From assembly GCA_031267895.1 (NCBI GenBank), contig JAIRYF010000016.1, forward strand, positions 1-45,921: a stretch of 45,921 bases of DNA, read 5' to 3'. This document shows, piece after piece, positions 2,361-45,921 of the stretch. How positions within the stretch are numbered: the stretch's first letter is position 1; each line of letters opens with the position of its first letter. The notes beneath the pieces are model-generated. The model did not search any database, was not told the origin of the DNA, and saw nothing but the letters and a program-made list of their open reading frames with translations. The DNA comes from Candidatus Methanoplasma glyptotermitis (GTDB lineage Archaea > Thermoplasmatota > Thermoplasmata > Methanomassiliicoccales > Methanomethylophilaceae). A program made the translations under genes and the position numbers.

Positions 2361-2368
2361 AATAAAAC

Positions 2369-3890: not shown

Positions 3891-4040
3891 ATGTCTGACC
3901 AGACGCAACGGGCAATGCTGCGGCACCCCACTTTCACTCATGTCGAGATTTTCGAGATGAATATGGCGTCACGGTCGGATGTTGAGATGTGTCCGTCAAT
4001 AAGCCGCGAGGTTAGCGAAGACACCCTCGCAGGAATGTGA
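3891..4040 (+). CDS. possible small protein upstream of uL3
   Basis: An ATG at 3891 opens a 49-residue frame starting MSDQTQRAMLRHPTF and ending SREVSEDTLAGM, with TGA at 4038-4040, four bases before the uL3 ATG and in another frame. The TATA boxes just upstream fit its start, and its composition is acidic with no obvious bias. It could be a real small protein, a translated leader that couples to uL3, or chance. No family is recognised. Confidence 0.35.
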   Translation: MSDQTQRAMLRHPTFTHVEIFEMNMASRSDVEMCPSISREVSEDTLAGM

Positions 4041-4044
4041 ATAA

Positions 4045-5043: not shown

Positions 5044-5047
5044 TTGA

Positions 5048-6096: not shown

Positions 6097-6105
6097 GGCG
6101 ATCGA

Positions 6106-6795: not shown

Positions 6796-6801
6796 TTCCG
6801 A

Positions 6802-7263: not shown

Positions 7264-7274
7264 GGTGTTGAGGA

Positions 7275-7730: not shown

Positions 7731-7732
7731 TC

Positions 7733-8434: not shown

Positions 8435-8637
8435 TGGCATTGCTAAAGACCGGTGACATACGAGAAATGAGCGCAGAGGAACGCAACGAGAAGCTCAAAG
8501 AACTCCGCAACGACCTCATGCACGAGAGAGGGATATCGGCAATGGGCGGGGCACCATCCAACCCCGGTATAATCCGCGCCGTAAGAACAAATATCGCCCG
8601 CATCCTGACCGTTCAGAATGAGGAGGAAAAAGTCTGA
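8434..8637 (+). CDS. rpl29: 50S ribosomal protein uL29
   Basis: 67 residues, a two-helix protein next to the tunnel exit. The motif EMSAEERNEKLKELRNDL is the standard uL29 start, and the tail RAVRTNIARILTVQNEEE is also typical. The ATG at 8434 shares one base with the uS3 stop and has the SD AGGAGGT upstream; a TTG at 8431 is in frame but less likely. Its last base is shared with the next start codon. Confidence 0.93.
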   Translation: MALLKTGDIREMSAEERNEKLKELRNDLMHERGISAMGGAPSNPGIIRAVRTNIARILTVQNEEEKV

Positions 8638-8936
8638 TGGCCGATATATGCCCTGTGTGCGGATTGCCCAAAGAACTCTGCATGTGCGAAGAGATCGCAC
8701 GCGAGCAGCAGATGGTAAGGATATCCGTGGACAGCAGGAGATACGGCAAAATGGTCACAGTGATCGACGGCATTGACGAGAACGACATTGACGTAGAGGA
8801 CCTGGCCAAACAACTGAAAGTGAAGTGCGCCGCCGGCGGAGCGTACAAAGACGGACGCATCGAGCTTCAGGGAGATCACAAGAAAAAAGTCAAAGCCGTG
8901 CTGGAAGAAATAGGATTCCGCACAGAAGTAAGATAA
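8637..8936 (+). CDS. translation initiation factor aIF1 (SUI1/YciH family)
   Basis: 99 residues. aIF1 binds the 30S P site and monitors start-codon pairing. The SUI1 core is clear (VTVIDGIDENDIDVEDLAKQL, then KCAAGGAYKDGRIELQGDHK, where the KxGG loop is conserved). The N-terminus has a small zinc-binding knuckle, CPVCGLPKELCMC, found in the archaeal YciH-type proteins. The position between uL29 and Rnp1 is the standard archaeal arrangement. It is one of the few genes here that end in TAA. Confidence 0.93.
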   Translation: MADICPVCGLPKELCMCEEIAREQQMVRISVDSRRYGKMVTVIDGIDENDIDVEDLAKQLKVKCAAGGAYKDGRIELQGDHKKKVKAVLEEIGFRTEVR

Positions 8937-8937
8937 G

Positions 8938-9192
8938 ATGAACAGGAGCGATTTCATGAGATCAGAACTCATTGGACTGGACGTGGTAGTGCTGTCAGCC
9001 CCATACTCGGGAATTTCCGGGAAAGTGGTAGACGAGACGAAGAACACGTTCACCATCTCATCGGCCGGAACTGAAAGAATGGTACCGAAACCAGGCAGTG
9101 AGTTTAGGTTCACTTATGAAGGCGGACACATGGACATCAGAGGCACAGACATACAACACCGACCAGAGGACAGAATAAAGAAGGTTAGGTGA
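8938..9192 (+). CDS. rnp1: ribonuclease P protein component 1 (Rpp29/Pop4)
   Basis: 84 residues, an Sm-like beta barrel protein subunit of archaeal RNase P, which matures the 5' ends of tRNAs. The recognisable core is ELIGLDVVVLSAPYSGISGKVVDETKNTF, shown here in pieces: ELIGLDVVV, YSGISGKVVDETKNTF, and MVPKPGSEFRF. It lies between aIF1 and uS17, as in most euryarchaea. It starts two bases after the aIF1 stop; an internal ATG at 8956 (MRSELIGL) is an alternative start. Confidence 0.9.
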   Translation: MNRSDFMRSELIGLDVVVLSAPYSGISGKVVDETKNTFTISSAGTERMVPKPGSEFRFTYEGGHMDIRGTDIQHRPEDRIKKVR

Positions 9193-9198
9193 AAGAAA

Positions 9199-9531
9199 AT
9201 GACAGCAAAAATCAGAAACATTGGAATTGATGTGGTCCCCCCCACATCCGAATGCAGCGACCCCAATTGCCCGTTCCACGGCAGCCTTTCGGTCAGGGGA
9301 CAGATCATCGACGGAGTTGTTGCGACCGTAAAAATGAACAAGACGGTCGTGGTAGAGCGCAATTATTTGAAATATCATAAAAAATACGAGAGATACGAGA
9401 AGAGGTCCAACAGGTACCCCTCCCACGCATCCCCCTGCCTCGGACTGAAGGTCGGCGACCGCGTGAGGATCATGGAGTGCCGTCCGATATCCAAAACAGT
9501 ATCTTTCGCAGTCATAGAGAAAAAGGAGTGA
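9199..9531 (+). CDS. rps17: 30S ribosomal protein uS17
   Basis: 110 residues. uS17 is an OB-fold primary 16S binder. The archaeal N-terminal extension with CSDPNCPFHG is present. The OB core reads GVVATVKMNKTVVVERNYL, then HASPCLGLKVGDRVRI and RPISKTVSFAV. The start follows the Rnp1 stop by six bases, with SD GTTAGGTGA. Confidence 0.95.
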   Translation: MTAKIRNIGIDVVPPTSECSDPNCPFHGSLSVRGQIIDGVVATVKMNKTVVVERNYLKYHKKYERYEKRSNRYPSHASPCLGLKVGDRVRIMECRPISKTVSFAVIEKKE

Positions 9532-9537
9532 TCTGGA

Positions 9538-9936
9538 ATGAAAGGAATCTCTGGGAGACAGACAAGAGGACTTCAGAACGGATCCCGCCTTGACGTGATC
9601 GATAACAGCGGTGCCAAGGTGATCGAGATCATCACCGTCCCCGGATACCACGGCGTTGCCAGAAGGGTCCCGTCGGCAGGCATCGGGGATCTTGTGATAG
9701 CATCGGTCAAAAAGGGGACTCCGGCTATGAGGAGACAGATTGTTTTCGCCGTTATAGTCCGTCAGAGACGCCCGACCAGGCGCGCGGACGGAACTATGGT
9801 GTACTTCGAGGATAATGCAGCCGTGATCGTCACGGAAACCGGCGAGACCAAAGGTACCGATATAAAGGGTCCTGTGGCAAGAGAATCGGCAGACAGATGG
9901 CCGCGTATAGCGGCCACAGCCAACACTATAGTGTGA
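9538..9936 (+). CDS. rpl14: 50S ribosomal protein uL14
   Basis: 132 residues, archaeal length. uL14 binds the sarcin-ricin side of 23S rRNA and contacts 16S rRNA at an intersubunit bridge. The signatures SRLDVIDNSGAKVIEI (here NGSRLDVIDNSGAKV) and RADGTMVYFEDNAAVIV are unmistakable. An SD (AAGGAGTGATC) precedes the ATG at 9538. Confidence 0.97.
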   Translation: MKGISGRQTRGLQNGSRLDVIDNSGAKVIEIITVPGYHGVARRVPSAGIGDLVIASVKKGTPAMRRQIVFAVIVRQRRPTRRADGTMVYFEDNAAVIVTETGETKGTDIKGPVARESADRWPRIAATANTIV

Positions 9937-9947
9937 GGTGAAATAAG

Positions 9948-10322
9948 ATGACAAGCAGCAAAGCAGGAGTACAGAGAAAAGTACAGGCAAACGCTCCCTC
10001 ACATGTCAGGAGGAAGATGCTCTCGGCGCACCTGAGTGCCGAACTCCGCGGACAATACGGAGTGCGCACCGCCAGGGTCTGCAAAGGAGACACGGTTGCA
10101 ATAGTGCGCGGCGACGAGGATGTCCGAGGGACCGAGGCAAAGGTCCTTGAGGTCTTCACGAACACAGGCCGCGTGTCGGTGGAAGGAGTCACAATAAATC
10201 AGGCCGACGGTACCGCAACGGTCCGCCCGGTACACGCATCCAATCTGATCATAACCAAACTCAACTCGGAGGATCAGTGGAGGATCGATTCGCTTTCAAA
10301 GAAGAAGGAGGCTAAAGAATGA
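9948..10322 (+). CDS. rpl24: 50S ribosomal protein uL24
   Basis: 124 residues. uL24 is an assembly initiator with a KOW motif, seen as VCKGDTVAIVRGDEDVRGTEAKVLEV near residues 44-69; in pieces, CKGDTVAIVRGDEDVRG. The archaeal N-terminus (KAGVQRKVQANAPSHVRRK) is longer than in bacteria. The stop overlaps the eS4 ATG by four bases. Confidence 0.95.
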   Translation: MTSSKAGVQRKVQANAPSHVRRKMLSAHLSAELRGQYGVRTARVCKGDTVAIVRGDEDVRGTEAKVLEVFTNTGRVSVEGVTINQADGTATVRPVHASNLIITKLNSEDQWRIDSLSKKKEAKE

Positions 10323-11026
10323 GCGACCATATGAAGAGATTAGCCGCACCCAGAACATGGCCCCTTAAGAGGAAGGTCTCGGTCTGGGCGACGAAACAGT
10401 CCCCGGGAGCGCACTCACTGGAAAGCGGTATGCCCGCAGTGGCGGTGCTCAGGGACATGATAAAGATTTGCGACACGGCAAAAGAGGCAAAACGTATAAT
10501 CAGCAACCGCGGAGTCTTCGTTGACGGCACGGCCGTCAAGAATCCTAAAGCATCTATCGGCCTGATGGACACTGTCTCCATACCCGCAATGGGACTCAAT
10601 TACCGCATGCTCCTGACGGACAAGGGAAAGCTTTCGCTTGTACCTGTATCGGAAGACGAAGCGAAATGGAAACTCTGCAGGATCGAAGGTAAAACGAAGG
10701 TCAGCGGGGGGAAAATACAGCTCAATCTGAGCAGCGGAAGGAACATAATCCTGGATAAGAACATGTACAAATCCGGGGATACGCTCAGAATAAACACGGC
10801 AGACCAGACGGTTCTTGACAGCTACGCCCTGGCCGACGGTGCGTCCGCGCTCATTATAAGCGGTGCGCTTGCCGGAAAAGTGTATACCGTCGCTGACTGC
10901 GTGACAGTGAAAGGCCCATCGGATAACATCGTCAGATTCCAAAGCGGAACAGAAACTGTGAAGAGAAATGTGTTCGTAATCGGTTCCTCCAAGCCGGAAA
11001 TCAAGCTGCCGGAGGCATCCGAATGA
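10319..11026 (+). CDS. rps4e: 30S ribosomal protein eS4
   Basis: 235 residues, the archaeal/eukaryal eS4 (distinct from uS4). It begins MSDHMKRLAAPRTWPL, followed by an S4-type RNA-binding motif (CDTAKEAKRIISNRGVFVDG, near residues 51-70) and a C-terminal KOW-containing region (ISGALAGKVYTVADC). The ATGA overlap with uL24 and with the following uL5 start is typical of this operon. Confidence 0.95.
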   Translation: MSDHMKRLAAPRTWPLKRKVSVWATKQSPGAHSLESGMPAVAVLRDMIKICDTAKEAKRIISNRGVFVDGTAVKNPKASIGLMDTVSIPAMGLNYRMLLTDKGKLSLVPVSEDEAKWKLCRIEGKTKVSGGKIQLNLSSGRNIILDKNMYKSGDTLRINTADQTVLDSYALADGASALIISGALAGKVYTVADCVTVKGPSDNIVRFQSGTETVKRNVFVIGSSKPEIKLPEASE

Positions 11027-11532
11027 ACGCAACCAGACAGATACACGTGGACAAGGTTACCGTGAATATCGGCGTCGGAGAGGCCGGAGAGAGACTGGTC
11101 AAGGCTCAGAAAGTCCTTGAGATGGTTACCGGACAGAAATCGGTGCAGACAATATCCAAGAACGTGAACAGAGACCTCGGCATACGTGTGGGAATGCCGC
11201 TCGGATGCAAGGTCACTCTGAGGGGGGACACCGCCGAAGAATTTCTTCAGAAATCCCTTCCGATAAGAGAAAGAAAGATCTACGAATATTCTTTCGACAG
11301 AGAAGGCAACATGTCCTTCGGAATATCCGACTATACGGATTTTGAAGGCATGAAATATGATCCGGAGATAGGAATATTCGGTATGGATATCAGCGTGGTC
11401 CTGAGAAGGACCGGGAACAGGATCACTCAGAGGGCACTCCTCCGAAGGAGGATACCCAAAAGCCACCGCGTAGGCCGCGGCGAGGCGATCCAGTACATGA
11501 AAGAGAACTATGACATAGAGGTGGTCGAGTGA
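11023..11532 (+). CDS. rpl5: 50S ribosomal protein uL5
   Basis: 169 residues. uL5 belongs to the 5S rRNP in the central protuberance and contacts P-site tRNA. Typical segments are [20 protein letters not shown] at the start, [20 protein letters not shown], and the C-terminal [16 protein letters not shown]. The ATG at 11023 overlaps the eS4 stop. The TGA overlaps the GTG start of uS14. Confidence 0.96.
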
Positions 11533-11675
11533 AACCAAAGAAACAGTTCGGCAGAACGGTCGGATGCACCCGCTGCGGACGCAGGAGGGGCATCATCAGG
11601 AGATACGGAATGCACCTCTGCCGCCAGTGTTTCAGGGACGTGGCCCCGGAACTGGGATTCAAGAAATATTCGTGA
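11529..11675 (+). CDS. rps14: 30S ribosomal protein uS14 (zinc-binding form)
   Basis: 48 residues, a short gene starting with GTG at 11529 that overlaps the uL5 TGA. The zinc ribbon is complete: CTRCG, then CRQCF 18 residues later, between a basic start (KPKKQFGRT) and the end ELGFKKYS. This is the compact archaeal/eukaryal C+ uS14, placed in the 30S head near the decoding site. It sits in its standard position between uL5 and uS8. Confidence 0.95.
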
Positions 11676-11685
11676 GGTGTAAAGA

Positions 11686-12075
11686 ATGCAGAGCGATCCA
11701 CTTAACGACGCGATGTGCGTCATGAAGAATGCAGCAGCCAATGGAAAGAGCGAATGCACAATCCAGCCATCATCTAAACTTATCGGCCGCGTGCTGAAGG
11801 TTATACAGGACCACGGATACATCAGCCAGTTCGAGTACATAGAAGACGGCAAAGCAGGCAAATTCCGTATAATGATGGAAGGGGCCATAAACAACTGCGG
11901 TGTAATAAAGCCCAGGTATTCGGTCAAAGCAAATGAAATTGAAAATTTCGAGGCGAGGTATCTGCCCGCTCAGGATTTCGGTGTCCTTATACTTACGACC
12001 ACTGCCGGAGTGATCACACAGGACCGTGCCAAAGAACTTGGCATAGGCGGAAAATTATTGGCATACATTTACTGA
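11686..12075 (+). CDS. rps8: 30S ribosomal protein uS8
   Basis: 129 residues. uS8 binds the 16S central domain and is a known translational repressor of spc-type operons in bacteria. The start DPLNDAMCVMKNA and the C-terminal signature LTTTAGVITQDRAKELGIGGKLLAYIY (ending GGKLLAYIY) are diagnostic. A good SD, GAGGTG, sits at 11675-11680, six bases ahead of the ATG. Confidence 0.95.
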   Translation: MQSDPLNDAMCVMKNAAANGKSECTIQPSSKLIGRVLKVIQDHGYISQFEYIEDGKAGKFRIMMEGAINNCGVIKPRYSVKANEIENFEARYLPAQDFGVLILTTTAGVITQDRAKELGIGGKLLAYIY

Positions 12076-12084
12076 GGAATACAG

Positions 12085-12636
12085 ATGACAATAGCAGGGA
12101 AAATCGAAAGCACCATCGCCATCCCCGATGGGGTGTCCGTCGGAATGAACGGCAACACCGTGACGGTCAAAGGACCAAGGGGTGAATTGAGCAGAAACTT
12201 TGCGTACCCCCGCATTATCATTGCCATCGGAGAGGGAGTGGTCAGCGTAAGCAGTGAGTACCCCCGAACAAAGGACAAGGCAATGGTCGGAACCTTCGCG
12301 GCTCACATAGGCAACATGATAAAAGGAGTTACCGCGGGTTTCACCTACACATTGAAGGTTGTGTTCTCCCACTTCCCGATGAAAGTGGCAGTGAAGGACA
12401 ACCGCGTAGAGATAAACAACTACTTGGGAGGACATGCCCCCAGATACGCCGATATAGTCGGAGGGTGCAAGGTCAAAATCAGCGGTGCGGATGTCACCGT
12501 GGAAGGAAACAGCATAGAAGCATGCGGACAGACTGCAGCTAACATCGAGAGAGCGACATCCAGGCTCGGGTTCGACAAAAGGACATTCCAGGACGGAATA
12601 TACATAGTCCATAAATCACACAAGGTGAAAGAATGA
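12085..12636 (+). CDS. rpl6: 50S ribosomal protein uL6
   Basis: 183 residues with two repeats of the uL6 fold, near the factor-binding GTPase centre. Visible pieces are PDGVSVGMNGNTVTVKGPRG in the first repeat, GFTYTLKVVFSHFPMKV, and RLGFDKRTFQDGIYIV at the end. It follows uS8 by nine bases and overlaps the eL32 start by four. Confidence 0.96.
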   Translation: MTIAGKIESTIAIPDGVSVGMNGNTVTVKGPRGELSRNFAYPRIIIAIGEGVVSVSSEYPRTKDKAMVGTFAAHIGNMIKGVTAGFTYTLKVVFSHFPMKVAVKDNRVEINNYLGGHAPRYADIVGGCKVKISGADVTVEGNSIEACGQTAANIERATSRLGFDKRTFQDGIYIVHKSHKVKE

Positions 12637-13304
12637 GCGTAAAGACACTGACGGATCTTCCAGGCCTCAAAGAGGATAACGTCCCGGAATTGGAACAGAT
12701 AGGAATATCATCTGTGTCGGAGCTCAGGGATGCCATCTTTGACGACGCCAGGGTGAAAGAAGTAATAAAGAATCTATCGGGAGTAGGGCCGAAGACAGTC
12801 GAGGGCTGGAAGGCGATATTCAGCGGGAATATGCCGGAGGCCAAAGCCGCCAAGAAAGAGGTCGAGATAGTAGAAGAGAAAACCGAGGTCGGAGAATACA
12901 CCGTGAAGGCTAAGCCGGAACTCAGCGACGAGACCGCCGACGCACTGGCCAAGAGGGCCGTGATCTCGGGGCGCAGACCCGCATTCAAAAGACAGGAATG
13001 GTTCAGATACTCCAAACTCGGAGAGAAATGGAGGAAACCGAAAGGAATACATTCCAAGATGAAGAGAAGGCTGAAGAGACGTCCGCCGATGGTTGACATC
13101 GGGTTCAGGGGACCGGTATCGGTCAGAGGACTTCACCCCTCGGGATTCGAGGAAGTGCTTGTATACAATGTGGAGGGGCTTGACGGCATAGATCCGAAAG
13201 CGCAGGCGGTCCGCATAGGCGGCACCGTAGGCACAAAGAAGAGGATCGCCATCGAAGGCAGGGCAGCCGAACTGGGCATAAGGGTCCTCAACAGGATGGT
13301 GTGA
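12633..13304 (+). CDS. rpl32e: 50S ribosomal protein eL32 with N-terminal HhH extension
   Basis: 223 residues. The eL32 core starts around residue 105 (RPAFKRQEWFRYSKLGEKWRKP) and carries PPMVDIGFRGPVSVRGLHPSG. The first ~65 residues form a helix-hairpin-helix-like domain (LTDLPGLKEDNVPEL; LSGVGPKTVEGWKAI), followed by an acidic linker. Comparable N-terminal extensions are known in other euryarchaeal eL32 proteins such as those of haloarchaea. The start overlaps uL6, and the stop overlaps an alternative GTG start of eL19. Confidence 0.94.
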   Translation: MSVKTLTDLPGLKEDNVPELEQIGISSVSELRDAIFDDARVKEVIKNLSGVGPKTVEGWKAIFSGNMPEAKAAKKEVEIVEEKTEVGEYTVKAKPELSDETADALAKRAVISGRRPAFKRQEWFRYSKLGEKWRKPKGIHSKMKRRLKRRPPMVDIGFRGPVSVRGLHPSGFEEVLVYNVEGLDGIDPKAQAVRIGGTVGTKKRIAIEGRAAELGIRVLNRMV

Positions 13305-13306
13305 AC

Positions 13307-13765
13307 ATGGATCTCAGAAACCAGAGAAGAATGGCTGCAGAGGCCCTCAAATGCGGTGAAAACAGAGTCTGGATGAACCCGGACAGACTTGAGGATGTCG
13401 AGGACTGCATAACCCGTTCGGATATCAGGATCGCGATCGGCTCGGGATTGATTAAAGCAAAACCCAAGCAAGGTACATCCAAAGGAAGGAAGAGATACGC
13501 GGCCGAACAGAGGGCCAGCGGAAAGAGAAAGGGTCCTGGCAGCAGGAAAGGAACAGCAAACGCACGCGTTCCCGACAAGCGCAGGTGGATAGCTATAATC
13601 AGACCTATCCGCGACGAGCTGAAGACCCTGAGGGCCGAAGGTAAAATACCCCCGTCGGTCTACAGACTCTACTACAGAAGGGCCAAGGGAGGAGTTTACA
13701 AATCCCGCAGGAACCTCAGGCAGCACATGACTGCCGCAGGCCACCTGAAAGAGGAGGAGATCTGA
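13307..13765 (+). CDS. rpl19e: 50S ribosomal protein eL19
   Basis: 152 residues from the ATG at 13307 (MDLRNQRRMAAEALKCG). A GTG at 13301 would add two residues, but the SD-like GGATGGTG fits 13307 better. Diagnostic segments are ENRVWMNPDRLEDVEDCITR and GSRKGTANARVPDKRRWIA. eL19 is very basic and contributes to an intersubunit bridge in archaea and eukaryotes. Its last base is shared with the uL18 ATG. Confidence 0.94.
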   Translation: MDLRNQRRMAAEALKCGENRVWMNPDRLEDVEDCITRSDIRIAIGSGLIKAKPKQGTSKGRKRYAAEQRASGKRKGPGSRKGTANARVPDKRRWIAIIRPIRDELKTLRAEGKIPPSVYRLYYRRAKGGVYKSRRNLRQHMTAAGHLKEEEI

Positions 13766-14265
13766 TGGCGACAGGACCAAGATATAAAGTTGCATTCAGA
13801 AGAAGAAGAGAATGCCGTACCGACTATTACGCCAGGAAGAAGCTCCTCAGGAGCGGAGAATCCAGGGCGGTGGTAAGGAGATCCAACAGGAACGTTACCG
13901 TCCAGTTCATCGATTTCGATATGGCCGGAGACAGAATCAGGGCCGCGGCAACGACCGGAGAACTGCGCAAGATGGGTTGGGAGTACTCGTGCTCGTCCAT
14001 CCCGGCTGCGTACCTCGCCGGTTACCTCGCGGGCAAGAGAGCGTTAAAGAGCGGTATAGAGTATGCCGTTCCGGATATCGGTATGCAGAACCCGAAACAC
14101 GGAGGAGTGCTCTTCGCAGTCGTGAAAGGCATGGCCGATGCGGGCCTTGAGGTCCCGCACAGCGAAGATGTGCTTCCCTCGGAGGACAGAATCAACGGTA
14201 AGCATATCAACGGCAATATCGAGGCTGCAATGAGCAGCATGAAGAAAAAGATGGAGGCTGAGTGA
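13765..14265 (+). CDS. rpl18: 50S ribosomal protein uL18
   Basis: 166 residues, the 5S rRNA partner of uL5. The archaeal features are the start GPRYKVAFRRRRECRTDYYARKK (given in two parts: GPRYKVAFRRRRE, CRTDYYARKKLL), then SRAVVRRSNRNVTVQF and AYLAGYLAGKRAL. The ATG at 13765 follows the SD GAGGAGGAG. One base separates its stop from the uS5 ATG. Confidence 0.95.
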   Translation: MATGPRYKVAFRRRRECRTDYYARKKLLRSGESRAVVRRSNRNVTVQFIDFDMAGDRIRAAATTGELRKMGWEYSCSSIPAAYLAGYLAGKRALKSGIEYAVPDIGMQNPKHGGVLFAVVKGMADAGLEVPHSEDVLPSEDRINGKHINGNIEAAMSSMKKKMEAE

Positions 14266-14266
14266 A

Positions 14267-14944
14267 ATGGAGTGGATCCCGAAAACAAGACTGGGACAGA
14301 TGGTCCTCAATGGCGAGATCACGACCATGAGCGGCGCACTGGAGACGAGGCTGCCTCTCCGCGAGGCAGAGATAGTGGACATACTCCTTCCTGATATGAA
14401 GGATGAGGTCATAGACCTCAACATGGTCCAGAGGATGACCGATTCCGGAAGGAGAGTGAGGTTCGCGGTGACCTGTATAGTCGGCAACGGCGACGGGTTC
14501 ATCGGCATAGGAAGAGCCAAAGGCAAAGAGGTCGGTCCGTCCATAAAGAAGGCGATAGACAACGCCAAACTCAATATCATAGAGGTTAAGAGAGGCTGCG
14601 GATCATGGGAGTGCGGCTGCGGACAGCCCCATACCCTTCCGTTCGAGGTGGTCGGCCGCACGGGATCCGTCACGGTGTCCCTGAAACCCGCACCCCAGGG
14701 GATATCTCTGGCTGTGGGAGATGTCGCCAAGAGTCTCCTGACGCTTGCCGGCGTGAAAGACTCCTGGGGATTCGCCACCGGCAACACCAAAACAAAAGTC
14801 AACTATGCCATGGCAACATTCGAGGCACTCAAGATGACAGCCCGCATGAGAATAACAGACGAACAGGTTCTGAGACTGAACATAGTCCCGGGTCCTATCG
14901 GGATAAAGTTCTCTGAAACCGATGTCGGCCAAGGGGAGGAGTGA
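14267..14944 (+). CDS. rps5: 30S ribosomal protein uS5
   Basis: 225 residues, archaeal length. uS5 helps decoding fidelity and sits at the mRNA entrance with uS3. The double-stranded RNA-binding-like N-terminal fold reads RVRFAVTCIVGNGDGFIGIG, and the C-terminal fold reads GVKDSWGFATGNTKTKVNYA, the usual archaeal signature. Its last bases (AAGGGGAGGAG) contain the strong SD for uL30. Confidence 0.96.
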   Translation: MEWIPKTRLGQMVLNGEITTMSGALETRLPLREAEIVDILLPDMKDEVIDLNMVQRMTDSGRRVRFAVTCIVGNGDGFIGIGRAKGKEVGPSIKKAIDNAKLNIIEVKRGCGSWECGCGQPHTLPFEVVGRTGSVTVSLKPAPQGISLAVGDVAKSLLTLAGVKDSWGFATGNTKTKVNYAMATFEALKMTARMRITDEQVLRLNIVPGPIGIKFSETDVGQGEE

Positions 14945-14946
14945 AC

Positions 14947-15411
14947 ATGGCATACGCAGTCGTACGCGTTCGCGGACAGCCGGATGTCAACAAGGACATA
15001 AAATACACAATGGAGCTGCTCGGCCTGACCCGAGTCAACCATTGTGTGGTGGTTCCGGAGAACTCGTCTACAAAAGGCATGCTGCAGATGGTAAAGGATT
15101 ACTGCACATGGGGCGAGATCGACGGGGAGACCCTCTCTGCGATGATAAAGACACGCGGAAAGACGGCCGGAGACAGAGACATAACCGAAGACTATCTCAG
15201 AGAGAAGACAGAGTTCGGAAGTGTCGAAGAACTCGCAAAGGCAATGATAGAAAGCGACTACAGGATGAGGGATATGGAAGACGCAAAACCGGTCTTCCGT
15301 CTGCACCCCCCCATAAAGGGATACGAAGGCAATAAACGTTCGTTCGCGAACGGAGGGGCCCTCGGATACAGGGGAAAGGAGATCAACGACCTCATCAACA
15401 GGATGCTCTGA
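14947..15411 (+). CDS. rpl30: 50S ribosomal protein uL30
   Basis: 154 residues, the long archaeal/eukaryal uL30. It starts MAYAVVRVRGQPDVNKDIKY, followed by LLGLTRVNHCVVVPE, and its C-terminus reads RLHPPIKGYEGNKRSFANGG, as in other archaea. The ATG at 14947 lies seven bases after GGGGAGG; the upstream GTG at 14941 is too close to it. It is co-transcribed with uS5 and uL15. Confidence 0.94.
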   Translation: MAYAVVRVRGQPDVNKDIKYTMELLGLTRVNHCVVVPENSSTKGMLQMVKDYCTWGEIDGETLSAMIKTRGKTAGDRDITEDYLREKTEFGSVEELAKAMIESDYRMRDMEDAKPVFRLHPPIKGYEGNKRSFANGGALGYRGKEINDLINRML

Positions 15412-15421
15412 GGTGGAATTG

Positions 15422-15844
15422 ATGCCAAGCAGAACTAAGAAGATGAGGGGATCAAGGACCCACGGTCGTGGGAAAAAGGCAGGCCGCGGAGCCGGGCTCA
15501 TCGGCGGCCACGGACAGGCGGGTCTTTCTAAGACAGGTAAAATGTACATGCTCAAATACGACAGAGACCACTTCGGAAGGCACGGATTCAAGAGGCCTCA
15601 GTGCGTGGTACGGGCGAACAGCACCATTAACGTAAGCGAACTCAGAGAGCAGATCGAGCGTTTCGTATCCATGGGATTCGCGGTCAGAGAAGGGGATACG
15701 TATAATATCAACCTCACCAATGCGGGTATCGATAAGTTACTCGGGAACGGCAGCATAGGTATACCGGTCAACGTTACCGTTTCCCAAATTTCGGCCAAGG
15801 CCCGCGAGAAAATCGAAGCCTCGGGCGGAAGCGTAGCAGAGTAA
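15422..15844 (+). CDS. rpl15: 50S ribosomal protein uL15
   Basis: 140 residues from the ATG at 15422 (MPSRTKKMRGSRTHGRG). The GTG at 15413 lies within the SD GAGGTGG and is unlikely. The glycine-rich N-terminal arm KKAGRGAGLIGGHGQAGLSK is typical; it threads into 23S rRNA. The C-terminal domain carries NVTVSQISAKAREKIEASGG. It ends in TAA, 22 bases before SecY, which is the standard neighbour. Confidence 0.95.
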   Translation: MPSRTKKMRGSRTHGRGKKAGRGAGLIGGHGQAGLSKTGKMYMLKYDRDHFGRHGFKRPQCVVRANSTINVSELREQIERFVSMGFAVREGDTYNINLTNAGIDKLLGNGSIGIPVNVTVSQISAKAREKIEASGGSVAE

Positions 15845-15866
15845 AGATATCTAGGAGAAGATTGGG

Positions 15867-17405
15867 ATGGAAGAACAGCCTAGCTTGTTGTACAAGGTAA
15901 AGCCGATAAGCGACAAGCTCCCTGCGGTCAAGCGTCCTGAAGGCCATGTGCATTTCAGGACCAAGATGATGTGGGTCGTGGTCATACTGGTCATCTATTT
16001 TGTGATGACCAATGTATACCTTTACGGCCTGGACCAGGCCGAGTCGCTGGACCTGTTCGCACAGTACAGGACCATCATGGCGGGAGCTTCGGGAACGATT
16101 TTACAGTTAGGCATAGGACCCATAGTCACTGCCTCGATCATAATGCAGCTGTTTGTCGGAGCCAAGATAATAAAATTGGATCTGACCAGCAAGAATGACA
16201 AAGCCTGTTATCAGTCTGTCCTCAAGCTGCTTGTGATCGTGATGATAGTGGTGGAGGCGGTGCCTCAGGTCTTCGGGTTCCTGATACCGTCCTCGTCTTT
16301 CGAAGCATCGTGGGGGTCCGGCGGAGCGAGGCTGCTGATAATACTGCAGCTTTGCGTGGGGTCCTACTTGGTATTCCTGTTCGACGAAGTGATATCCAAA
16401 TGGGGTATCGGCAGCGGAATATCGCTGTTCATAGCGGCAGGTGTCGCGCAGTCGGTGTTTACCGGAGCTCTGAATTGGTACCCGGTGACGGCGGGCCAGG
16501 CCATGAGCCTGTCCAATCCGCCGGCGGGGACGATACCCAAAGCCATATATGTGCTGTTCAACACGTCATCCGAAGAGATGGCCAACGGCGGTTACGAACT
16601 GGTGTTTTTGGGAGAACCCAATCCTATGATTGCGCTTATAGGGACGGTGCTGATATTCCTGCTGGTGGTGTACATCGAGTCCACCCGCATAGAACTGCCG
16701 CTGTCCCACGGAAACGTGAGAGGTGCGAGAGGCAGATATCCGATCAAACTGATGTATGCAAGCAACATACCCGTGATTCTGATGTCTGCACTGCTTGCCA
16801 ACGTGAGTATGGTGGCGCTTCTGCTGTACAGTAACGATTTCCTCAGCAGCATACCTTTCCTCGGCCACAATAGTTCAATAGGTTATTTCGAAAGCGGAGG
16901 CACCAGTGCTGTGGGCGGTATCGCGTGGTATCTCTCGGCACCCACCGGAGTGACCAGCTGGCTTATGCCTGTCCTGAACCCTCTGAGCTACGGCAACGGA
17001 CATACAGTCCTGCAGAATATGGGCCACGTACTGGTATACGGCACAGTGATGATCATGGGTTCGATAATGTTCGCGAAGTTCTGGGTGCAGACCACGAATC
17101 TTGGATCGGACGCAGTTGCGAAACAGATACAGAAGAGCGGTATGCAGATACCCGGGTTCCGAAGGGATCCGAGGGTACTCAGGAGAGTGTTAGAGAGATA
17201 CATCCCTACCGTTACGATCATATCCGGGGCAATGATCGGTGCACTGGCTGCCGGAGCGGATATGATCGGCACCACGGGCCATGCCACAGGTACCGGTCTG
17301 TTGCTGGCGGTGGGTATCCTGATACATTTCTACGAGGCCATAGGGCGCGAGCAGATGATGGAAATGAATCCGGTCATGAGAGGATTCTTCGGCAAGGAGG
17401 ACTGA
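15867..17405 (+). CDS. secY: preprotein translocase subunit SecY
   Basis: 512 residues forming the central pore of the Sec translocon in the cytoplasmic membrane. About ten membrane segments can be read, the first being MMWVVVILVIYFVMTNVYLYG (about residues 34-54; core WVVVILVIYFVMT). The plug and pore region AGASGTILQLGIGPIVTASI is conserved, and the cytoplasmic loop before TM7 includes RIELPLSHGNVRGARGRYPIK, whose basic residues contact ribosome and SRP receptor. An SD (TAGGAGA) lies at 15852-15858. It follows uL15 as in other archaea, but the adenylate kinase gene that often comes next is absent. Confidence 0.97.
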   Translation: MEEQPSLLYKVKPISDKLPAVKRPEGHVHFRTKMMWVVVILVIYFVMTNVYLYGLDQAESLDLFAQYRTIMAGASGTILQLGIGPIVTASIIMQLFVGAKIIKLDLTSKNDKACYQSVLKLLVIVMIVVEAVPQVFGFLIPSSSFEASWGSGGARLLIILQLCVGSYLVFLFDEVISKWGIGSGISLFIAAGVAQSVFTGALNWYPVTAGQAMSLSNPPAGTIPKAIYVLFNTSSEEMANGGYELVFLGEPNPMIALIGTVLIFLLVVYIESTRIELPLSHGNVRGARGRYPIKLMYASNIPVILMSALLANVSMVALLLYSNDFLSSIPFLGHNSSIGYFESGGTSAVGGIAWYLSAPTGVTSWLMPVLNPLSYGNGHTVLQNMGHVLVYGTVMIMGSIMFAKFWVQTTNLGSDAVAKQIQKSGMQIPGFRRDPRVLRRVLERYIPTVTIISGAMIGALAAGADMIGTTGHATGTGLLLAVGILIHFYEAIGREQMMEMNPVMRGFFGKED

Positions 17406-17406
17406 A

Positions 17407-18084
17407 ATGCCGAACCCGGGAAGTCCTCAGACAATGCAGCAGAACACGCCGCCTATGCCAAAAGGCACCATGATCGGCATGCTTATGACTCTGATGATAA
17501 TGATGGTCGTCATGATGTTCAGGGACCCCATAGGACAGGGACTGAACTATGGACTCTTTATCATCGATTTTGGCGGCAAATGGCCTGTGTTCACCCTCAT
17601 AATCGCCGGCCTCATAATGATAACTCTGAGCACAGTCATAAGATCATTTATGACTGACTTCGTCAGCCAGGCAAAGAGCCAGAGCATACAGAGCGAATTC
17701 AACAAAGAGATGCGCCAGGCGAGACTTGAAAATAACCTCTACAAAATGAAGAAACTCCAGGAGGAACAGCCCAAGATGATGGCGAAATCCATGGACTCAA
17801 GCATGAAAATGATGAAGGCCATGCCGATAACCATGGTCGTCGTCATACCGATTTATGCATGGGTCTGGTTCTTCCTTGACAACACAGTTCCTCCCGAACT
17901 GCTGACAGTATCTCTGCCCTGGGGACAGGTGTACCTTCTGGATACGCTCTGGTTCCTTCCGATATGGATCGTCATCTACACCATGATTAGCCTTCCGATA
18001 GGCCAGCTCGAGAATAGGGTCGTCAGGTATTTCCTGCTGAAAAAACGCCTGAAAGAACTGGACAGCATCGAAAACAAGAGCTGA
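17407..18084 (+). CDS. EMC3/TMCO1-like (DUF106) membrane insertase family protein
   Basis: 225 residues. It belongs to the archaeal DUF106 proteins, which are related to the Oxa1/YidC/Alb3/EMC3 insertases. It has an N-terminal membrane segment rich in Met (MIGMLMTLMIMMVVMMF), a second segment (FTLIIAGLIMITLSTVI), a long cytoplasmic coiled-coil (about residues 95-135, KEMRQARLENNLYKMKKLQEE), and further segments near residues 140-160 and 175-200. The arrangement SecY-DUF106-Cmk is conserved in euryarchaea and supports a role in co-translational membrane insertion. It starts one base after the SecY stop. Confidence 0.9.
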   Translation: MPNPGSPQTMQQNTPPMPKGTMIGMLMTLMIMMVVMMFRDPIGQGLNYGLFIIDFGGKWPVFTLIIAGLIMITLSTVIRSFMTDFVSQAKSQSIQSEFNKEMRQARLENNLYKMKKLQEEQPKMMAKSMDSSMKMMKAMPITMVVVIPIYAWVWFFLDNTVPPELLTVSLPWGQVYLLDTLWFLPIWIVIYTMISLPIGQLENRVVRYFLLKKRLKELDSIENKS

Positions 18085-18088
18085 CGAT

Positions 18089-18622
18089 ATGAGGGTCACG
18101 ATAAGCGGTCCTCCCGGGTCTGGAAAAACCACCGCGTGCAGAAAACTCTCCGAGAGACTTGGCATCAGGGCCGTGGTCTTCGGAGAATTTTTTCGTAAAC
18201 TTGCCAAAGAGAAAGGCATGACCCTTGCGGAGTTCAGTGCCCTGGCCGAATGCGATCCGTCTATTGATCAAACTATCGATTCGATGATATTGGACACTGC
18301 GGGACACGATCATGATATAATTTTAGAATCGAGGCTTTCGGCGCACATGCTGACGAAAAACGGCATACCCGCATTCAAAGTTTATCTTGACGCGAGTCCC
18401 GAAGTGAGGATGGAAAGGGTGGGCGTGAGAGAGGGTGAGAGCCGGGAAGATGTCTGCCGCCACACTGTCGAGAGACAGTCATCAGAAGCAAAACGTTACA
18501 AAATGTACTACGGCATAGATATAGAGGATAGAAGCATATACGATCTGATCCTCGACACGGATGATCTTGATCCGGATCAGGTCGCGGACAGGATCCTCAA
18601 AGCTATAGAGGAAAATACGTGA
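18089..18622 (+). CDS. cmk: cytidylate kinase (archaeal type)
   Basis: 177 residues. It phosphorylates CMP/dCMP to the diphosphates using ATP. The P-loop GPPGSGKTT is at residues 7-15, the NMP-binding part includes GEFFRKLAKEKGM, and the lid-like portion includes VRMERVGVREGESRED with conserved arginines. The length matches the short archaeal family. It overlaps cbf5 through a GTGA junction. Confidence 0.93.
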   Translation: MRVTISGPPGSGKTTACRKLSERLGIRAVVFGEFFRKLAKEKGMTLAEFSALAECDPSIDQTIDSMILDTAGHDHDIILESRLSAHMLTKNGIPAFKVYLDASPEVRMERVGVREGESREDVCRHTVERQSSEAKRYKMYYGIDIEDRSIYDLILDTDDLDPDQVADRILKAIEENT

Positions 18623-19617
18623 TAATCAAGGACCCGAACACCCTGCCGGATAAATGGGGCAAGAGACCTTCGGACAGGTCGACGGGAGAACTGCTCCGTG
18701 CGGGTGTCATCGCATTGGACAAGCCGTCCGGGCCGACATCCCATCAGGTCACGGCATGGGTCAGGGATGCTGTTCACGCGGAAAACATAAGTCACGGCGG
18801 GACACTCGATCCGTATGTCAGCGGAGTCCTCCCGATATGTCTGGGCAGGGCCGTGAGACTCACAGATATCGTTCTTTCGTCAGACAAAGAATACGTATGT
18901 CTGATGGTGCTTCACAGAGATGTTCCCGAAGACAGGGTGATCGGTGTTATGAAGAAATTCACGGGCAGGATTTACCAGCTCCCTCCGGTAAGATCGGCTG
19001 TCAAAAGACAGCTCAGGATAAGGACAGTCAGAGAACTGGAGGTCCTTGAGGTAAAAGGGAGAGAGGTTCTGTTCAGAGTATCATGCGATGCCGGCACGTA
19101 CATCAGGACACTGTGTACGGACGTGGGCGAGGCACTCGGCTGCGGGGCAAACATGACAGAACTCAGACGCACCCGTTCCGGTGTGATGAATGAATCCGAT
19201 GCGGTTTCTATGCACGACATAAAAGATGCATACATATTCTGGCAGCAGATGGGCAGAGAGAGCTGGCTGAGAAGCATGATACTGCCCATAGAGGTTCTCG
19301 CCGAGCCGCTTCCAAAAGTAATAGTCAAGCCGACTGCAGTGGATGCAATATGTCACGGTGCGGATCTGAACATCGGGGGCATACACATGCTGGACGAAGA
19401 CATAAGAAAGAATTCTCTCGCTGCGCTTATGACGGCAAGAGGCGAGCTTATAGCAATCGGCAAAATGATGATGTCCACCTCAAAAATAATGTCTTCGGAA
19501 CACGGGAAGGCGGTTGATGTCGACAGAGTGCTCATGGAAAGGGGACATTACCCCAAGATGTGGAAATTCTCCACGGACCTCAATGAACCCGGAGCACCCG
19601 ATGAAAACCGCTATTAA
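18619..19617 (+). CDS. cbf5: tRNA/rRNA pseudouridine synthase Cbf5 (TruB family)
   Basis: 332 residues. Cbf5 is the catalytic subunit of H/ACA RNPs and can also form pseudouridine 55 in tRNA. The catalytic Asp lies in GGTLDPYVSG (about residues 59-68), after the IALDKPSGPTSHQV motif. A C-terminal PUA domain begins near residue 233 (KVIVKPTAVDAICHGADL). The GTG at 18619 overlaps the cmk stop and has AGAGGA ahead. It ends in TAA and closes the superoperon. The eL34 and eL14 genes found around cmk and cbf5 in many euryarchaea are absent. Confidence 0.95.
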   Translation: MIIKDPNTLPDKWGKRPSDRSTGELLRAGVIALDKPSGPTSHQVTAWVRDAVHAENISHGGTLDPYVSGVLPICLGRAVRLTDIVLSSDKEYVCLMVLHRDVPEDRVIGVMKKFTGRIYQLPPVRSAVKRQLRIRTVRELEVLEVKGREVLFRVSCDAGTYIRTLCTDVGEALGCGANMTELRRTRSGVMNESDAVSMHDIKDAYIFWQQMGRESWLRSMILPIEVLAEPLPKVIVKPTAVDAICHGADLNIGGIHMLDEDIRKNSLAALMTARGELIAIGKMMMSTSKIMSSEHGKAVDVDRVLMERGHYPKMWKFSTDLNEPGAPDENRY

Positions 19618-19642
19618 TCGACAATGATATCACCCGGCAACT

Positions 19643-19978
19643 ATGAGACTGCTAAGAGACAGAGTTCTGGTATTCCAAAAAAAAAATCTGGCGATAGGGG
19701 AGTTCGATCCGGACGCGGAAGGATTCTACAGGAATGTGATGGCCTTCAGCTTCACCGTGAAGAAGAAAAAGATTCTGCGCGTGACCGTCAGGTCAGATAT
19801 CCCCGTCGACATAGCCATAGCGGACGAAGGCGGATCGTCGATCGCACACAAGCAGATGATGACCGACGGGGAACTGTCTGTTCCGACCGGCGGCAACAAA
19901 GAGATGGGGCTGTTTATAGGAATATGTCCGGGAGACAGAGCTCTCGTTAACGCTGAGATCTGGATGGAAAGACAATGA
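19643..19978 (+). CDS. unknown protein, partner of the downstream membrane protein
   Basis: 111 residues, not recognised. After a short charged start it is mostly predicted beta strand, in an alternating pattern (VMAFSFTVKKKKILRVTVRS, then IPVDIAIADEGG, and AEIWMERQ at the end). This resembles a small beta-sandwich or lipoprotein-like exterior domain, but no signal peptide is visible. It overlaps the following polytopic membrane protein by ATGA, so the two are coupled and probably act together. A TATA-like CTATTAATC at 19611-19619 is about 27 bases upstream and would give a leaderless message. Confidence 0.6.
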   Translation: MRLLRDRVLVFQKKNLAIGEFDPDAEGFYRNVMAFSFTVKKKKILRVTVRSDIPVDIAIADEGGSSIAHKQMMTDGELSVPTGGNKEMGLFIGICPGDRALVNAEIWMERQ

Positions 19979-21087
19979 GCATGCATATAGAGAGGGGCAG
20001 GAACGGAGACTTCTGGGCCAATCGGCTGCCGGACGGAATGTCTCTGACAAGGAGGTCCGATATCTGTACCGCAATCGCCGCCTGTATAACCTTCGCCGTG
20101 TCCCTGATCTACGTATTGCATGTCGGGGTAAAGTCAGGATCGCCGTTCTACAACGAAATGCATCTGCTGGCCATGCCGTTTTTCGTTTGCGGGCTTATAT
20201 TCTATATCCGATCCGAATACCGGATTTTGATAATACTGGCCGCCATCGCAGCTATATCCTGGTTAACGGGAATACAAGAGACATTGGTGTTCCTGATATT
20301 ATTCCTGATAATCGGAGCGGCCGGTACGGTATCGCTCGTAGACGCAGTACAGAGAGCCATGTTTTACGGAATACTTAGGTCCATAGAATACGCGAATGTG
20401 AAGAAAAAACTCTCATTCACGGACAAAATAATCATATTCCTGTTCAATGTCCCCGAAGATCTGGATACAAGAAACATAACAATGGATTATGAACTCAGAA
20501 GAACGAAGATACCGTGGAAAGAGGTGTGGAACTCGACATCTCTGGGCCTTATGGTCGGAATGTTCGTGTGGATATATATATCCATGAATCCGACATTTAT
20601 GAATCTCAGTTCCGAGAGTTCGGTCCCGCTGTTCATGTTCACTCTTATATTATACATACCCCTGCTTGTTATGCCATGGTCGATATTCAGATCGCTCAAC
20701 GTGAGGATCGAAACGAATTACAGAGAATTCAGAGTGTACAACGGCATAAGAGCAACTCTCCAGCGAATGGCAGTTCCGGTCATTGCAGCATTCTTTTTCG
20801 TTCTTGTAGCGATAAATACTTCCGATCTGCACACGGTTCTGTTCTACATCATTTTATCTGCGGTCATGATCGTGGCCACCCTCACGGTGACATCGATACT
20901 GTATTATTGGGTGTTCGAAGCCGTTACGATCAATGATATAGTCTCCAAATGGAAGATGTTCAGACCTGTGCCCATCTTCGTAGGGCTGGAAGACACAGAG
21001 AAGAAGCATCCGCGGGACGAACTGCCCGGAACTCCGAAAAGAGATAAAAGCGATTTCGGGAAGCTGACACTCCCCGGAGATAAATGA
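19975..21087 (+). CDS. unknown polytopic membrane protein
   Basis: 370 residues with about eight hydrophobic segments: roughly residues 30-50, 64-78, 84-104, 106-126, 190-209, 219-241, 269-285 and 289-316. A soluble stretch at about 127-188 contains a charged region (EDLDTRNITMDYELRRTKIPWKEVWN), and the C-terminal tail is hydrophilic (KKHPRDELPGTPKRDKSD). No family is recognised. The gene is translationally coupled to the 111-residue gene upstream, and the pair lies right after the ribosomal superoperon. Its stop is 26 bases from that of the convergent gene. Confidence 0.65.
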   Translation: MSMHIERGRNGDFWANRLPDGMSLTRRSDICTAIAACITFAVSLIYVLHVGVKSGSPFYNEMHLLAMPFFVCGLIFYIRSEYRILIILAAIAAISWLTGIQETLVFLILFLIIGAAGTVSLVDAVQRAMFYGILRSIEYANVKKKLSFTDKIIIFLFNVPEDLDTRNITMDYELRRTKIPWKEVWNSTSLGLMVGMFVWIYISMNPTFMNLSSESSVPLFMFTLILYIPLLVMPWSIFRSLNVRIETNYREFRVYNGIRATLQRMAVPVIAAFFFVLVAINTSDLHTVLFYIILSAVMIVATLTVTSILYYWVFEAVTINDIVSKWKMFRPVPIFVGLEDTEKKHPRDELPGTPKRDKSDFGKLTLPGDK

Positions 21088-44758: not shown

Positions 44759-44832
44759 GGGCCTGTAGCTCAGCTAGGTAGAGCGATCGACTCTTAATCG
44801 ATCGGCCAAGGGTTCGAATCCCTTCAGGCCCG
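44759..44832 (+). tRNA. tRNA-Lys (anticodon CTT)
   Basis: The full cloverleaf can be folded by eye. The acceptor is GGGCCTG with CAGGCCC plus discriminator G. The D arm is GCTC/GAGC. The anticodon stem is ATCGA/TCGAT with loop CTCTTAA, so the anticodon is CTT (44793-44795), reading AAG. A five-base variable region precedes the T arm AAGGG-TTCGAAT-CCCTT. CCA is not encoded, and there is no intron. TTTT follows at 44834-44837. The genes on its 3' side look foreign, so the 3' half may have served as an integration site. Confidence 0.97.
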
Positions 44833-44833
44833 C

Positions 44834-44837
44834 TTTT
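44834..44837 (+). terminator. T-run after tRNA-Lys
   Basis: TTTT begins two bases after the discriminator base of the tRNA, a usual place for termination of an archaeal tRNA transcript. Confidence 0.4.
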
Positions 44838-44952
44838 CCAGACTGGACGAGCCTATTTTTGGCAATTCGGAGAACCGCAAGATTTTCATCCGGTCTTTCA
44901 GAAATTTGAACGTCGCGGAACCAATCGATCCGCAATCCGGGGGGTGCCCCGA

Positions 44953-45423
44953 ATGACTGCGATAAGCTCGGCGGAACGCATCATAAAGATCATCTCGGCC
45001 TGGAATAAAAAAGGAATAAAATCCATCTATGCCGACAAATCCGAAATATACTTCATCGATAAGAAAGGTCATTCCGATCTCTCGGTATCCGGCCCTAACA
45101 TAAACGGCCCGGCTATCTGCTCTGTGCTTGGCCTGGAGGCTAAATCCTTTGAAGACATAGTATGCAGTCCGCGTGAATTTTCACCGGCCGCACAAATCAC
45201 ACGTCTCAACCGCGGCTATCTGATGCGGGCACTCGACGCAATGAACGGATGCGACGAAATTGAAATTATCGTTGAAGATCTCTCGCTCACAAGGATATCC
45301 GGCATACTCCATGATGATACATACATCATATCATACATCTCGCCTCTGATCTGCAATGATTCAGCAGACGACCGCAAGACCGCAGACGGCAAGCCGATTT
45401 GTGAAGAGGAGGCGGAATCGTGA
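44953..45423 (+). CDS. unknown protein of a possible integrated element
   Basis: 156 residues from the ATG at 44953 (MTAISSAERIIKIISAWNKK), six bases after the SD GGGGTG. A GTG at 44944 lies inside that SD. No family is recognised. Alternating strands are visible: IKSIYADKSEIYFIDKKGH in the N-terminal half, and CDEIEIIVEDLSLTRISGIL with DDTYIISYISPLI near residues 100-133. The last pattern recalls the edge strand of a sliding clamp, but that is a weak impression. The C-terminal 25 residues are acidic. The gene is 120 bases after tRNA-Lys, has no relative among neighbouring families, and is coupled by GTGA to the next frame. Confidence 0.55.
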   Translation: MTAISSAERIIKIISAWNKKGIKSIYADKSEIYFIDKKGHSDLSVSGPNINGPAICSVLGLEAKSFEDIVCSPREFSPAAQITRLNRGYLMRALDAMNGCDEIEIIVEDLSLTRISGILHDDTYIISYISPLICNDSADDRKTADGKPICEEEAES

Positions 45424-45921
45424 CCGCAATCAAGATAACACAGACCGCCGATAGCGGCGGTAAGAAATATGAACGCTGGGCATCAGAATTTTTGGATTTA
45501 CAGCTCCATCATGCCCGGCGTTCGCCTCTCGATTCCTTGAGTTTCCTAACCGCAAAGGCTATTCCGTGCGATAAGCTGGAAAACTCTTCGGATTCCACGC
45601 CTGCCCTTAAAAAATCCATCAAGTCTGGCGATAAACTAATTGTCAGTTTTTCCTTCTTTTCCCTTACCATGTATGGGAAATACTTACCGATTCAATTAAA
45701 TATTTCCCAGGGTTATTCCTACCTAGTAAGGAAAATCCTTACAGGAGCTGTAAAAAATGGAAAAATCAACTCAAACAGCGCAAGCTATGAACGCCCCGAC
45801 ACACCTGGATGTCATCTCGGACACCTGGGAGATCAGGGGATCGGACGGCAAGGCCACAACGTACGTTCGGGTAACCGTGGAAATATCCCCATTGGTCACA
45901 GACGCAATCAGAGACCGCCTG
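45420..45921 (+). CDS. open frame running off the window end, uncertain
   Basis: A GTG at 45420 overlaps the stop of the previous gene (GTGA) and opens a frame with no stop up to the window end. It begins MTAIKITQTADSGGKKYERW and is plausible protein for about 75 codons. Beyond about 45650 it crosses a TATA box, repeated CTTAC motifs and the start of another gene in a different frame, so its far part is probably not translated or is chance. A frameshift before 45650 or a short real gene with a hidden stop is possible. The product is not recognised. Confidence 0.25.
   Translation, partial: MTAIKITQTADSGGKKYERWASEFLDLQLHHARRSPLDSLSFLTAKAIPCDKLENSSDSTPALKKSIKSGDKLIVSFSFFSLTMYGKYLPIQLNISQGYSYLVRKILTGAVKNGKINSNSASYERPDTPGCHLGHLGDQGIGRQGHNVRSGNRGNIPIGHRRNQRPP
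45444..45461. repeat. perfect 6-bp inverted repeat
   Basis: ACCGCC, a 6-base loop GATAGC, then GGCGGT lie 21 bases after the stop of the 156-residue gene. This could be its 3'-end hairpin, which would count against the GTG frame being a real gene. Confidence 0.4.
45658..45742. promoter_or_regulatory. promoter with four CTTAC motifs and palindromes
   Basis: The TATA box TTAAATATTT (45696-45705) predicts a start near 45727, 30 bases before the ATG at 45757. Around it are CTTAC at 45663-45667, 45683-45687 and 45738-45742, and its complement GTAAG at 45726-45730. The first two are exactly 20 bases apart. GTAAGG-AAAAT-CCTTAC (45726-45742) is a perfect palindrome at the predicted start site. TTTCCC (45658-45663), GGGAAA (45675-45680) and TTTCCC (45703-45708) form further inverted pairs. 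This looks like an operator cluster, or iterons, for a DNA-binding protein. Confidence 0.6.
45757..45921 (+). CDS. unknown protein, N-terminal part only
   Basis: An ATG at 45757 opens a frame for 55 residues to the window end: MEKSTQTAQAMNAPTHLDV, then SDTWEIRGSDGKATTYVRVTVEISPL and DAIRDRL (quoted in parts). The SD AGGAG (45743-45747) is well placed, and a TATA with operator-like repeats precedes it. It is not recognised. The strand pattern YVRVTVEIS after a Trp-containing start suggests a small DNA- or protein-binding domain. The controlled promoter would suit a regulator or early gene of a mobile element. Confidence 0.6.
   Translation, partial: MEKSTQTAQAMNAPTHLDVISDTWEIRGSDGKATTYVRVTVEISPLVTDAIRDRL

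Follow-up and report, generated by a model that had tools for sequence, protein, structure and literature searches.

A putative integrated element at tRNA-Lys

The window, as the whole stretch of 45,921 nucleotides analysed here is called, is an entire contig (C71) of a 1.72-Mb genome assembled in 72 contigs. A tRNA-Lys(CTT) gene, the presumed integration target, was identified by ARAGORN and Rfam (RF00005) at 44759..44833 on the plus strand, and was the sole match in the Rfam scan. It is overlapped by one copy of an att-like 70-bp direct repeat (44816..44885), the second copy of which (positions 4116-4185, 90% identical) is found elsewhere in this genome, on contig C52, just past a tyrosine integrase gene. 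The relatives retrieved are similar up to the tRNA or slightly further. From the repeat, the integrase and the end of similarity we infer that the final kilobase of the window belongs to an element integrated at tRNA-Lys, of which it is the left end, cut off by the end of the contig, in agreement with the integrated element that the first-pass annotation had suspected.

The first ORF of the element (44944..45423, plus strand) encodes 159 aa, and its stop codon overlaps the GTG of a long open frame, here called the relay frame, that runs on the plus strand from 45420 to 45920, where it is cut by the contig end. Antisense within this frame lies a 53-aa ribbon-helix-helix (RHH) regulator gene (45509..45670, minus strand, stop codon included). 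Divergent from the regulator gene is a small gene, of which 55 codons (45757..45921, plus strand) precede the contig end; its relatives mostly have 62-79 aa. Two predicted operators, O1 and O2, with a TATA-like box between them, separate the divergent genes. No relative of the 159-aa ORF was found in its own genome, viral contigs, Pfam or PHROGs, and searches of the viral contigs with the small protein and the RHH alignment likewise returned no relatives. A search of genome contigs returned four loci, assigned to Methanomethylophilaceae, Candidatus Methanoplasma and Methanomassiliicoccales.

On C52, a 3926-aa repeat-rich ORF, adhesin-like by eye, is situated beyond the att repeat (L033:4658-16438, minus strand), and a 113-aa ORF near the integrase (L033:1616-1957, minus strand) is RHH-like by eye, with all of its Pfam matches below cut-off. 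A region of contig C54 (L044, bases 1-20000) encodes an integrase, a Zot-like ATPase and a PKD/Listeria-Bacteroides-repeat protein, and looks like another integrated element or provirus. It holds two tandem RHH/small-gene modules, whose operators and ribosome-binding site (RBS) copies differ between the two.

A probable CopG-like regulator divergent from the small gene

The regulator gene was reached through C54, where a homologue of the ORF starting at 45757 (42% identity) faces a divergent 53-aa gene with weak Pfam RHH_1 similarity. Comparison of the C54 53-aa protein with 102 genomes of the family returned the minus strand of the window (45670-45509) with an E-value of 2e-8, and so revealed a 53-aa gene that had been overlooked. 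The two C54 relatives reach 14.6 and 14.4 bits against Pfam RHH_1, below the cut-off of 20.5. The structural model of the window protein has a mean pLDDT of 83.9, with helices at residues 15-26 and 33-52 and the beta strand unassigned in the monomer. Its top structural match is ParD2 (7b22; Z 6.3, rmsd 1.4, 47 aligned); it also matches CopG (2cpg; Z 5.0, rmsd 2.6, 45 aligned) and the plasmid copy-control protein ORF56 (2k9i; Z 4.5, rmsd 4.1, 52 aligned). The best structural matches are all RHH domains, so the model has an RHH fold of the CopG type, and a profile search of PDB sequences gave a near full-length match to CopG with an E-value of 0.039. An RHH fold leads one to expect DNA binding but does not demonstrate it. 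On sequence and model, the 53-aa protein is most likely a CopG-like RHH autorepressor of the adjacent sites.

For comparison between loci, 29 RHH loci were collected, 16 with a recognisable module and 13 without. Excluded from the module set were L065 and L066 (no matching leader), L070 and L080 (fragments), and L092, L094-L097, L103, L106, L107 and L110 (more distant relatives without an RBS copy); L098-L101 and other weak matches lie outside the analysed set.

Repeats and predicted operators

The repeats that had been described for positions 45658-45757 are all present. CTTAC occurs at 45663, 45683 (20 bases apart) and 45738, and GTAAG at 45726; arms of the TTTCCC/GGGAAA type pair 45658-45667 with 45671-45680, and 45674-45686 with 45697-45709. 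The palindrome GTAAGG-N5-CCTTAC is found once in the window, at 45726-45742, and its true arms are 7 bp long (GTAAGGA-N3-TCCTTAC). When up to one mismatch was allowed, one further place was found in the 1.72-Mb genome, on contig C51. The density of the repeats, which had been taken as a signal, fared less well: the four copies exist, and this is the only site in the window with four CTTAC/GTAAG per 100 bp, but 101 of 512 5-mers (complements pooled) reach at least four copies in some 100-bp stretch of the window, and 99 of 917 100-bp windows hold a 5-mer with at least four copies. Since many 5-mers are equally dense, repeat density by itself proves nothing; the CTTAC repeats carry weight because their position is conserved in related loci. 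The TATA element reported between them was recovered as an AT-rich, TATA-like box at about 45695-45703. A sigma-70 style promoter scan gave no match at the repeat region, as expected for an archaeon.

O1 (45726..45742), the perfect palindrome with 7-bp arms, lies at the presumed start of the small-gene transcript, and O2 (45671..45687), identified by locus comparison, is an imperfect palindrome that touches the RHH start codon. The TATA-like box between them (45695..45703) is probably common to both promoters. Read in the direction of the RHH gene, the window has GTAAGGATTTTCCTTAC (O1), a 38-nt spacer, GTAAGTATTTCCCATAC (O2) and the RHH ATG, and the C54 copy has an identical layout, with GCAAGAATGATTCTTGC and GCAAGAATCTTTCGTGC likewise 38 nt apart. 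When the O1-O2 spacing was left free between 20 and 89 nt, 38 was chosen in 14 of the 29 RHH loci. With no spacing assumed, the best palindrome within 90 nt before the RHH start ended at 55 nt in 12 of the 26 loci counted (out of the 29), at 45 nt (shorter by roughly a helical turn) in 2 and at 57-58 nt in 4. The ten spacers compared all have an ATATTTA-like box, some 28 nt ahead of the RHH start. O2 is a clear copy of O1 (at least 12 of 17 positions) in only 6 of the 16 module loci and is degenerate elsewhere, so the second site is the weaker claim. This conserved geometry supports the prediction that O1 and O2 are operators of the RHH protein in an autoregulatory repressor switch. The repressor-controlled promoter suggested in the first-pass annotation likewise gains support from the divergent regulator gene that adjoins the sites and from the operator position kept in relatives.

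Codons 2-3 of the minus-strand RHH gene contain the CTTAC copy at 45663. A half-site-like GTAAGG/GCAAGG follows the RHH start codon directly, both in the window (45663-45667) and at L042:1755-1760, 20 nt from the first half of O2; it may be a third half-site, and codon constraint explains it equally well.

Regulator residues and half-sites vary together

Among RHH relatives of the order the position of the palindrome tends to be kept, but its sequence varies with the residues of the RHH beta strand. This relation was examined in 20 loci with a palindrome of at least 6 of 7, using as the middle contact position of the beta strand the residue that we take, from general RHH biology, to hold that place. 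Loci with T at this position have an xxAAG half-site in 9 of 13 cases, those with other residues in 0 of 7. When the middle residue was permuted, the observed difference was reached 16 times in 20000, a figure that, like the chance product given below for the relay frame, overstates independence because the loci are related to each other. ATCGGA is the half-site of all three loci with S, among them one that belongs to a different family of the order, and TCATGCA is that of both loci with T and A. Half-site similarity tracks overall RHH identity (Spearman 0.29, 25 loci), so common descent accounts for part of the covariation. The joint variation of beta-strand residues and half-sites supports a DNA recognition code.

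An inverted copy of the ribosome-binding site

The 11 nt directly before the small-gene ATG, GGAGCTGTAAA (45744..45754, plus strand), form the RBS region of that gene. They reappear inverted at 45507-45497, past the RHH stop codon, so that the plus strand at 45497..45507 reads TTTACAGCTCC, referred to here as the anti-RBS. RBS copies with other, locus-specific sequences are found on C54 (AGGATTGAAC) and at further loci (for example AGGAGTACCA, GAAGGACCAAC and TGGAGTGCTAC). When a short stretch per locus was searched in the 16 module loci, an exact copy of at least 8 nt (range 8-12) was present in 15 and of at least 9 nt in 14. The summed copy length was 163, and shuffling of partners gave at most 129 (0 of 200000 shuffles reached the observed value); matches of at least 8 nt to a non-cognate RBS occurred in 11 of 240 pairs. 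The mean RNA duplex energy was -18.3 kcal/mol for cognate and -11.3 kcal/mol for non-cognate partners, and by this energy the cognate partner was the best among the 16 in 14 of 16 loci. An RBS copy is also present outside the family, at L093. Inversion of the DNA between the two RBS copies was considered as a source of the arrangement and set aside, as the flanks of the copies differ.

The copy lies in the loop of a predicted hairpin, H1 (45471..45523), which on the plus strand presents the anti-RBS; a short GC-rich hairpin, H2, lies at 45444..45461. H1 is able to fold on either strand, and on the RHH strand a T-rich stretch often comes after it, which gives it the look of a terminator. Evidence on its functional strand is mixed. 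By energy the sense strand was lower in 6 of 16 loci. Counts of symmetric wobbles pointed to the RHH strand in 10 loci and to the small-gene strand in 5, wobble counts within the folded core stood at 8 against 5 for the small-gene strand, and core energies favoured that strand in 11 of 16 loci, with the core defined from the fold of the same strand. The minimum-energy fold of the window read-through RNA (45466-45765) lacked pairing between RBS and anti-RBS; a loop-to-RBS contact is a pseudoknot, which the program cannot represent. The anti-RBS hairpin may act as a second, RNA-level lock on the target gene.

A frame that may be conserved for being translated

The relay frame passes through the antisense of the RHH gene, the operators and the beginning of the small gene. 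A stop-free frame at fixed offset to the small gene was found over this course in 12 of 14 loci (the 16 module loci without L071 and L093), and the other two frames in the small-gene direction are closed by stops. Under a null in which the RHH and small proteins were randomly recoded and the spacers shuffled, the chance product was 10^-24, which is overstated because the loci are related. Start and stop overlaps were counted in 15 loci (without L093): the frame starts with ATGA or GTGA together with a Shine-Dalgarno match in 10 of the 15; among the 14 with sequence at its other end, 11 have a stop that overlaps the ATG of the following ORF. In archaea, overlaps of this type are known to indicate translational coupling (PMC6728339).

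Differences by codon position numbered 637/397/1091 in the RHH gene and 74/50/91 in the small gene. Mapped by hand onto the relay frame, these mean that the second position changes more than the first, or that the third changes least. This pattern is unlike that of a conserved protein, which suggests that the frame is kept for the act of translation, its product showing no sign of constraint. The model of the small protein (pLDDT 70.6) has two strands and a helix. A structure search with it gave weak matches only, the best being 2onf (Z 3.3, rmsd 4.1, 58 aligned), with levivirus coat proteins among the matches, and these provide no basis for assigning a function.

A possible two-layer switch and its alternatives

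These features are best accommodated, with a probability that we put slightly above even, by a two-layer lock in an element integrated at tRNA-Lys, in which the RHH protein acts on transcription and the anti-RBS on translation from read-through mRNA. Of the two palindromes, O1 is the better one and covers the start of the small-gene transcript; when bound there, RHH would shut off the small gene together with the genes that follow. At a higher level the protein would also occupy O2, which covers the start of the RHH gene, and so shut off its own gene. Read-through mRNA from the upstream operon would carry the anti-RBS in a hairpin loop and pair it with the small-gene RBS, and transcripts from the O1 promoter, which would have a free RBS without the complement, would be the sole source of small protein. 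The relay frame, with ATGA/GTGA-type overlaps at both ends, would let ribosomes pass the switch and reach the next gene. Three relatives have a gene of about 500 aa (with weak PHROG matches only) and an integrase near the module, so that the module could plausibly control excision or replication. The sequences themselves establish the genes, the sites and their conserved geometry, the joint variation of operator with RHH residues and of RBS with its copy, and the open frame; DNA binding, repression, RNA pairing, coupling and a role of the switch in the induction or replication of the element are predicted steps.

The same RHH switch could be combined with an anti-RBS that acts in trans. In that case a short antisense RNA, with its start within the relay frame, would show the anti-RBS in the H1 loop and block the small-gene mRNA, as RNAII does with repB in pMV158, perhaps giving immunity against related elements. 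The locus-specific complementarity across the RBS, its presentation in a hairpin loop and the pairing of an RHH repressor with an antisense RNA in pMV158 would all fit; by eye, however, the window has no convincing promoter directly upstream of H1, and we consider the trans version unlikely. Somewhat more doubtful is that the DNA layer alone is functional and that the RBS copy serves the RHH mRNA, for example as a 3' hairpin for a factor that binds the small-gene leader as well. Folding of H1 on the RHH strand, with its terminator-like T-rich stretch, speaks for such a role, but a protein factor would need a new specificity at every locus, so base pairing is the simpler account of the RBS covariation.

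A toxin-antitoxin pair, with an RHH antitoxin, a small toxin and an autoregulated promoter, is suggested by the adjoining small genes and by antitoxins such as ParD2 at the head of the structural matches. The genes are divergent rather than co-transcribed, however, and the small proteins scanned match no toxin family, which leaves this reading improbable. The origin iterons offered earlier as a second possibility for the repeats are very improbable. Two CTTAC copies do lie 20 bp apart, and related RHH proteins control plasmid copy number; against this, the repeats resolve into two palindromes that flank one TATA-like box at a conserved distance from the regulator gene, the end of the window (to 45921) holds no tandem array, and no Rep-like gene was recognised there.

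With the two-layer lock as the preferred reading, the loci may be members of a family of methanogen elements whose module combines a DNA code (RHH residues and operator) with an RNA code (RBS and distant anti-RBS) and nests the repressor gene antisense in a frame kept for translation only. Two copy-specific codes would make the modules orthogonal to each other, perhaps as immunity types. We hold this wider proposal tentatively, at a little under an even chance. If true, it would show how genes may be silenced in integrated elements of gut-type methanogens, in which few switches have been studied, and would provide a natural set of loci for comparing repressor residues with half-sites, as well as an archaeal RNA lock that can be tested. 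The open antisense frame also raises the general question of whether some frames are conserved for translation rather than for an encoded product.

Comparison with known systems

The components resemble those of systems described in the literature. In plasmid pMV158 (PMC4485353), CopG and RNAII form a comparable pair, a tiny RHH repressor and an RNA that prevents a neighbouring gene from being translated, the latter step being a prediction at the present locus. In the plasmid, copG shares a transcript with repB, and RNAII is encoded opposite its target region, to which it is complementary throughout; here the genes are divergent, and a separate short complement lies past the repressor gene, inside the open relay frame. 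In gene e of phage T4 and related read-through locks (PMC3014915), long transcripts hold an upstream strand that can cover the RBS and transcripts from a nearby promoter are without it. The window has a similar geometry, with the complement at 45497-45507, the RBS at 45744-45754, and the TATA-like box and O1 of the predicted promoter between them. The inhibitory structure in T4 lies at the initiation region itself, whereas here an antisense repressor gene and two operators (about 240 nt) separate the anti-RBS from the RBS, and the effect is predicted.

Small RHH proteins that act on inverted or tandem repeats are also described for archaeal viruses (SvtR, AvtR and F55; PMC5569661), and SvtR represses its own promoter (PMC5569661). 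These are viruses of Sulfolobus and Acidianus, and the excerpted text describes no RBS copy or relay frame for them. Every component thus has precedent, and the combination with locus-specific DNA and RNA codes seems new. Among titles and abstract openings of open-licence literature on these archaea, viral RHH operators and nested antisense overlap, no such module was found, which is weak evidence.

Two further observations concern the RHH loci themselves. L070 (G125:C136) and L080 (G065:C1) are RHH-gene fragments in which the 3' hairpin is kept and the upstream operator region is lost. L080 and L071, from two genomes, have the RHH gene and 3' region in common and differ in upstream sequence, a pattern that suggests recombination. 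Downstream of RHH genes at L042, two short ORFs (1113-1292 and 2009-2242, plus strand), on the strand opposite to the relay frame, have a common C-terminal pattern, APAGG...MTIV or ITIV...P, and are possibly another conserved nested gene.
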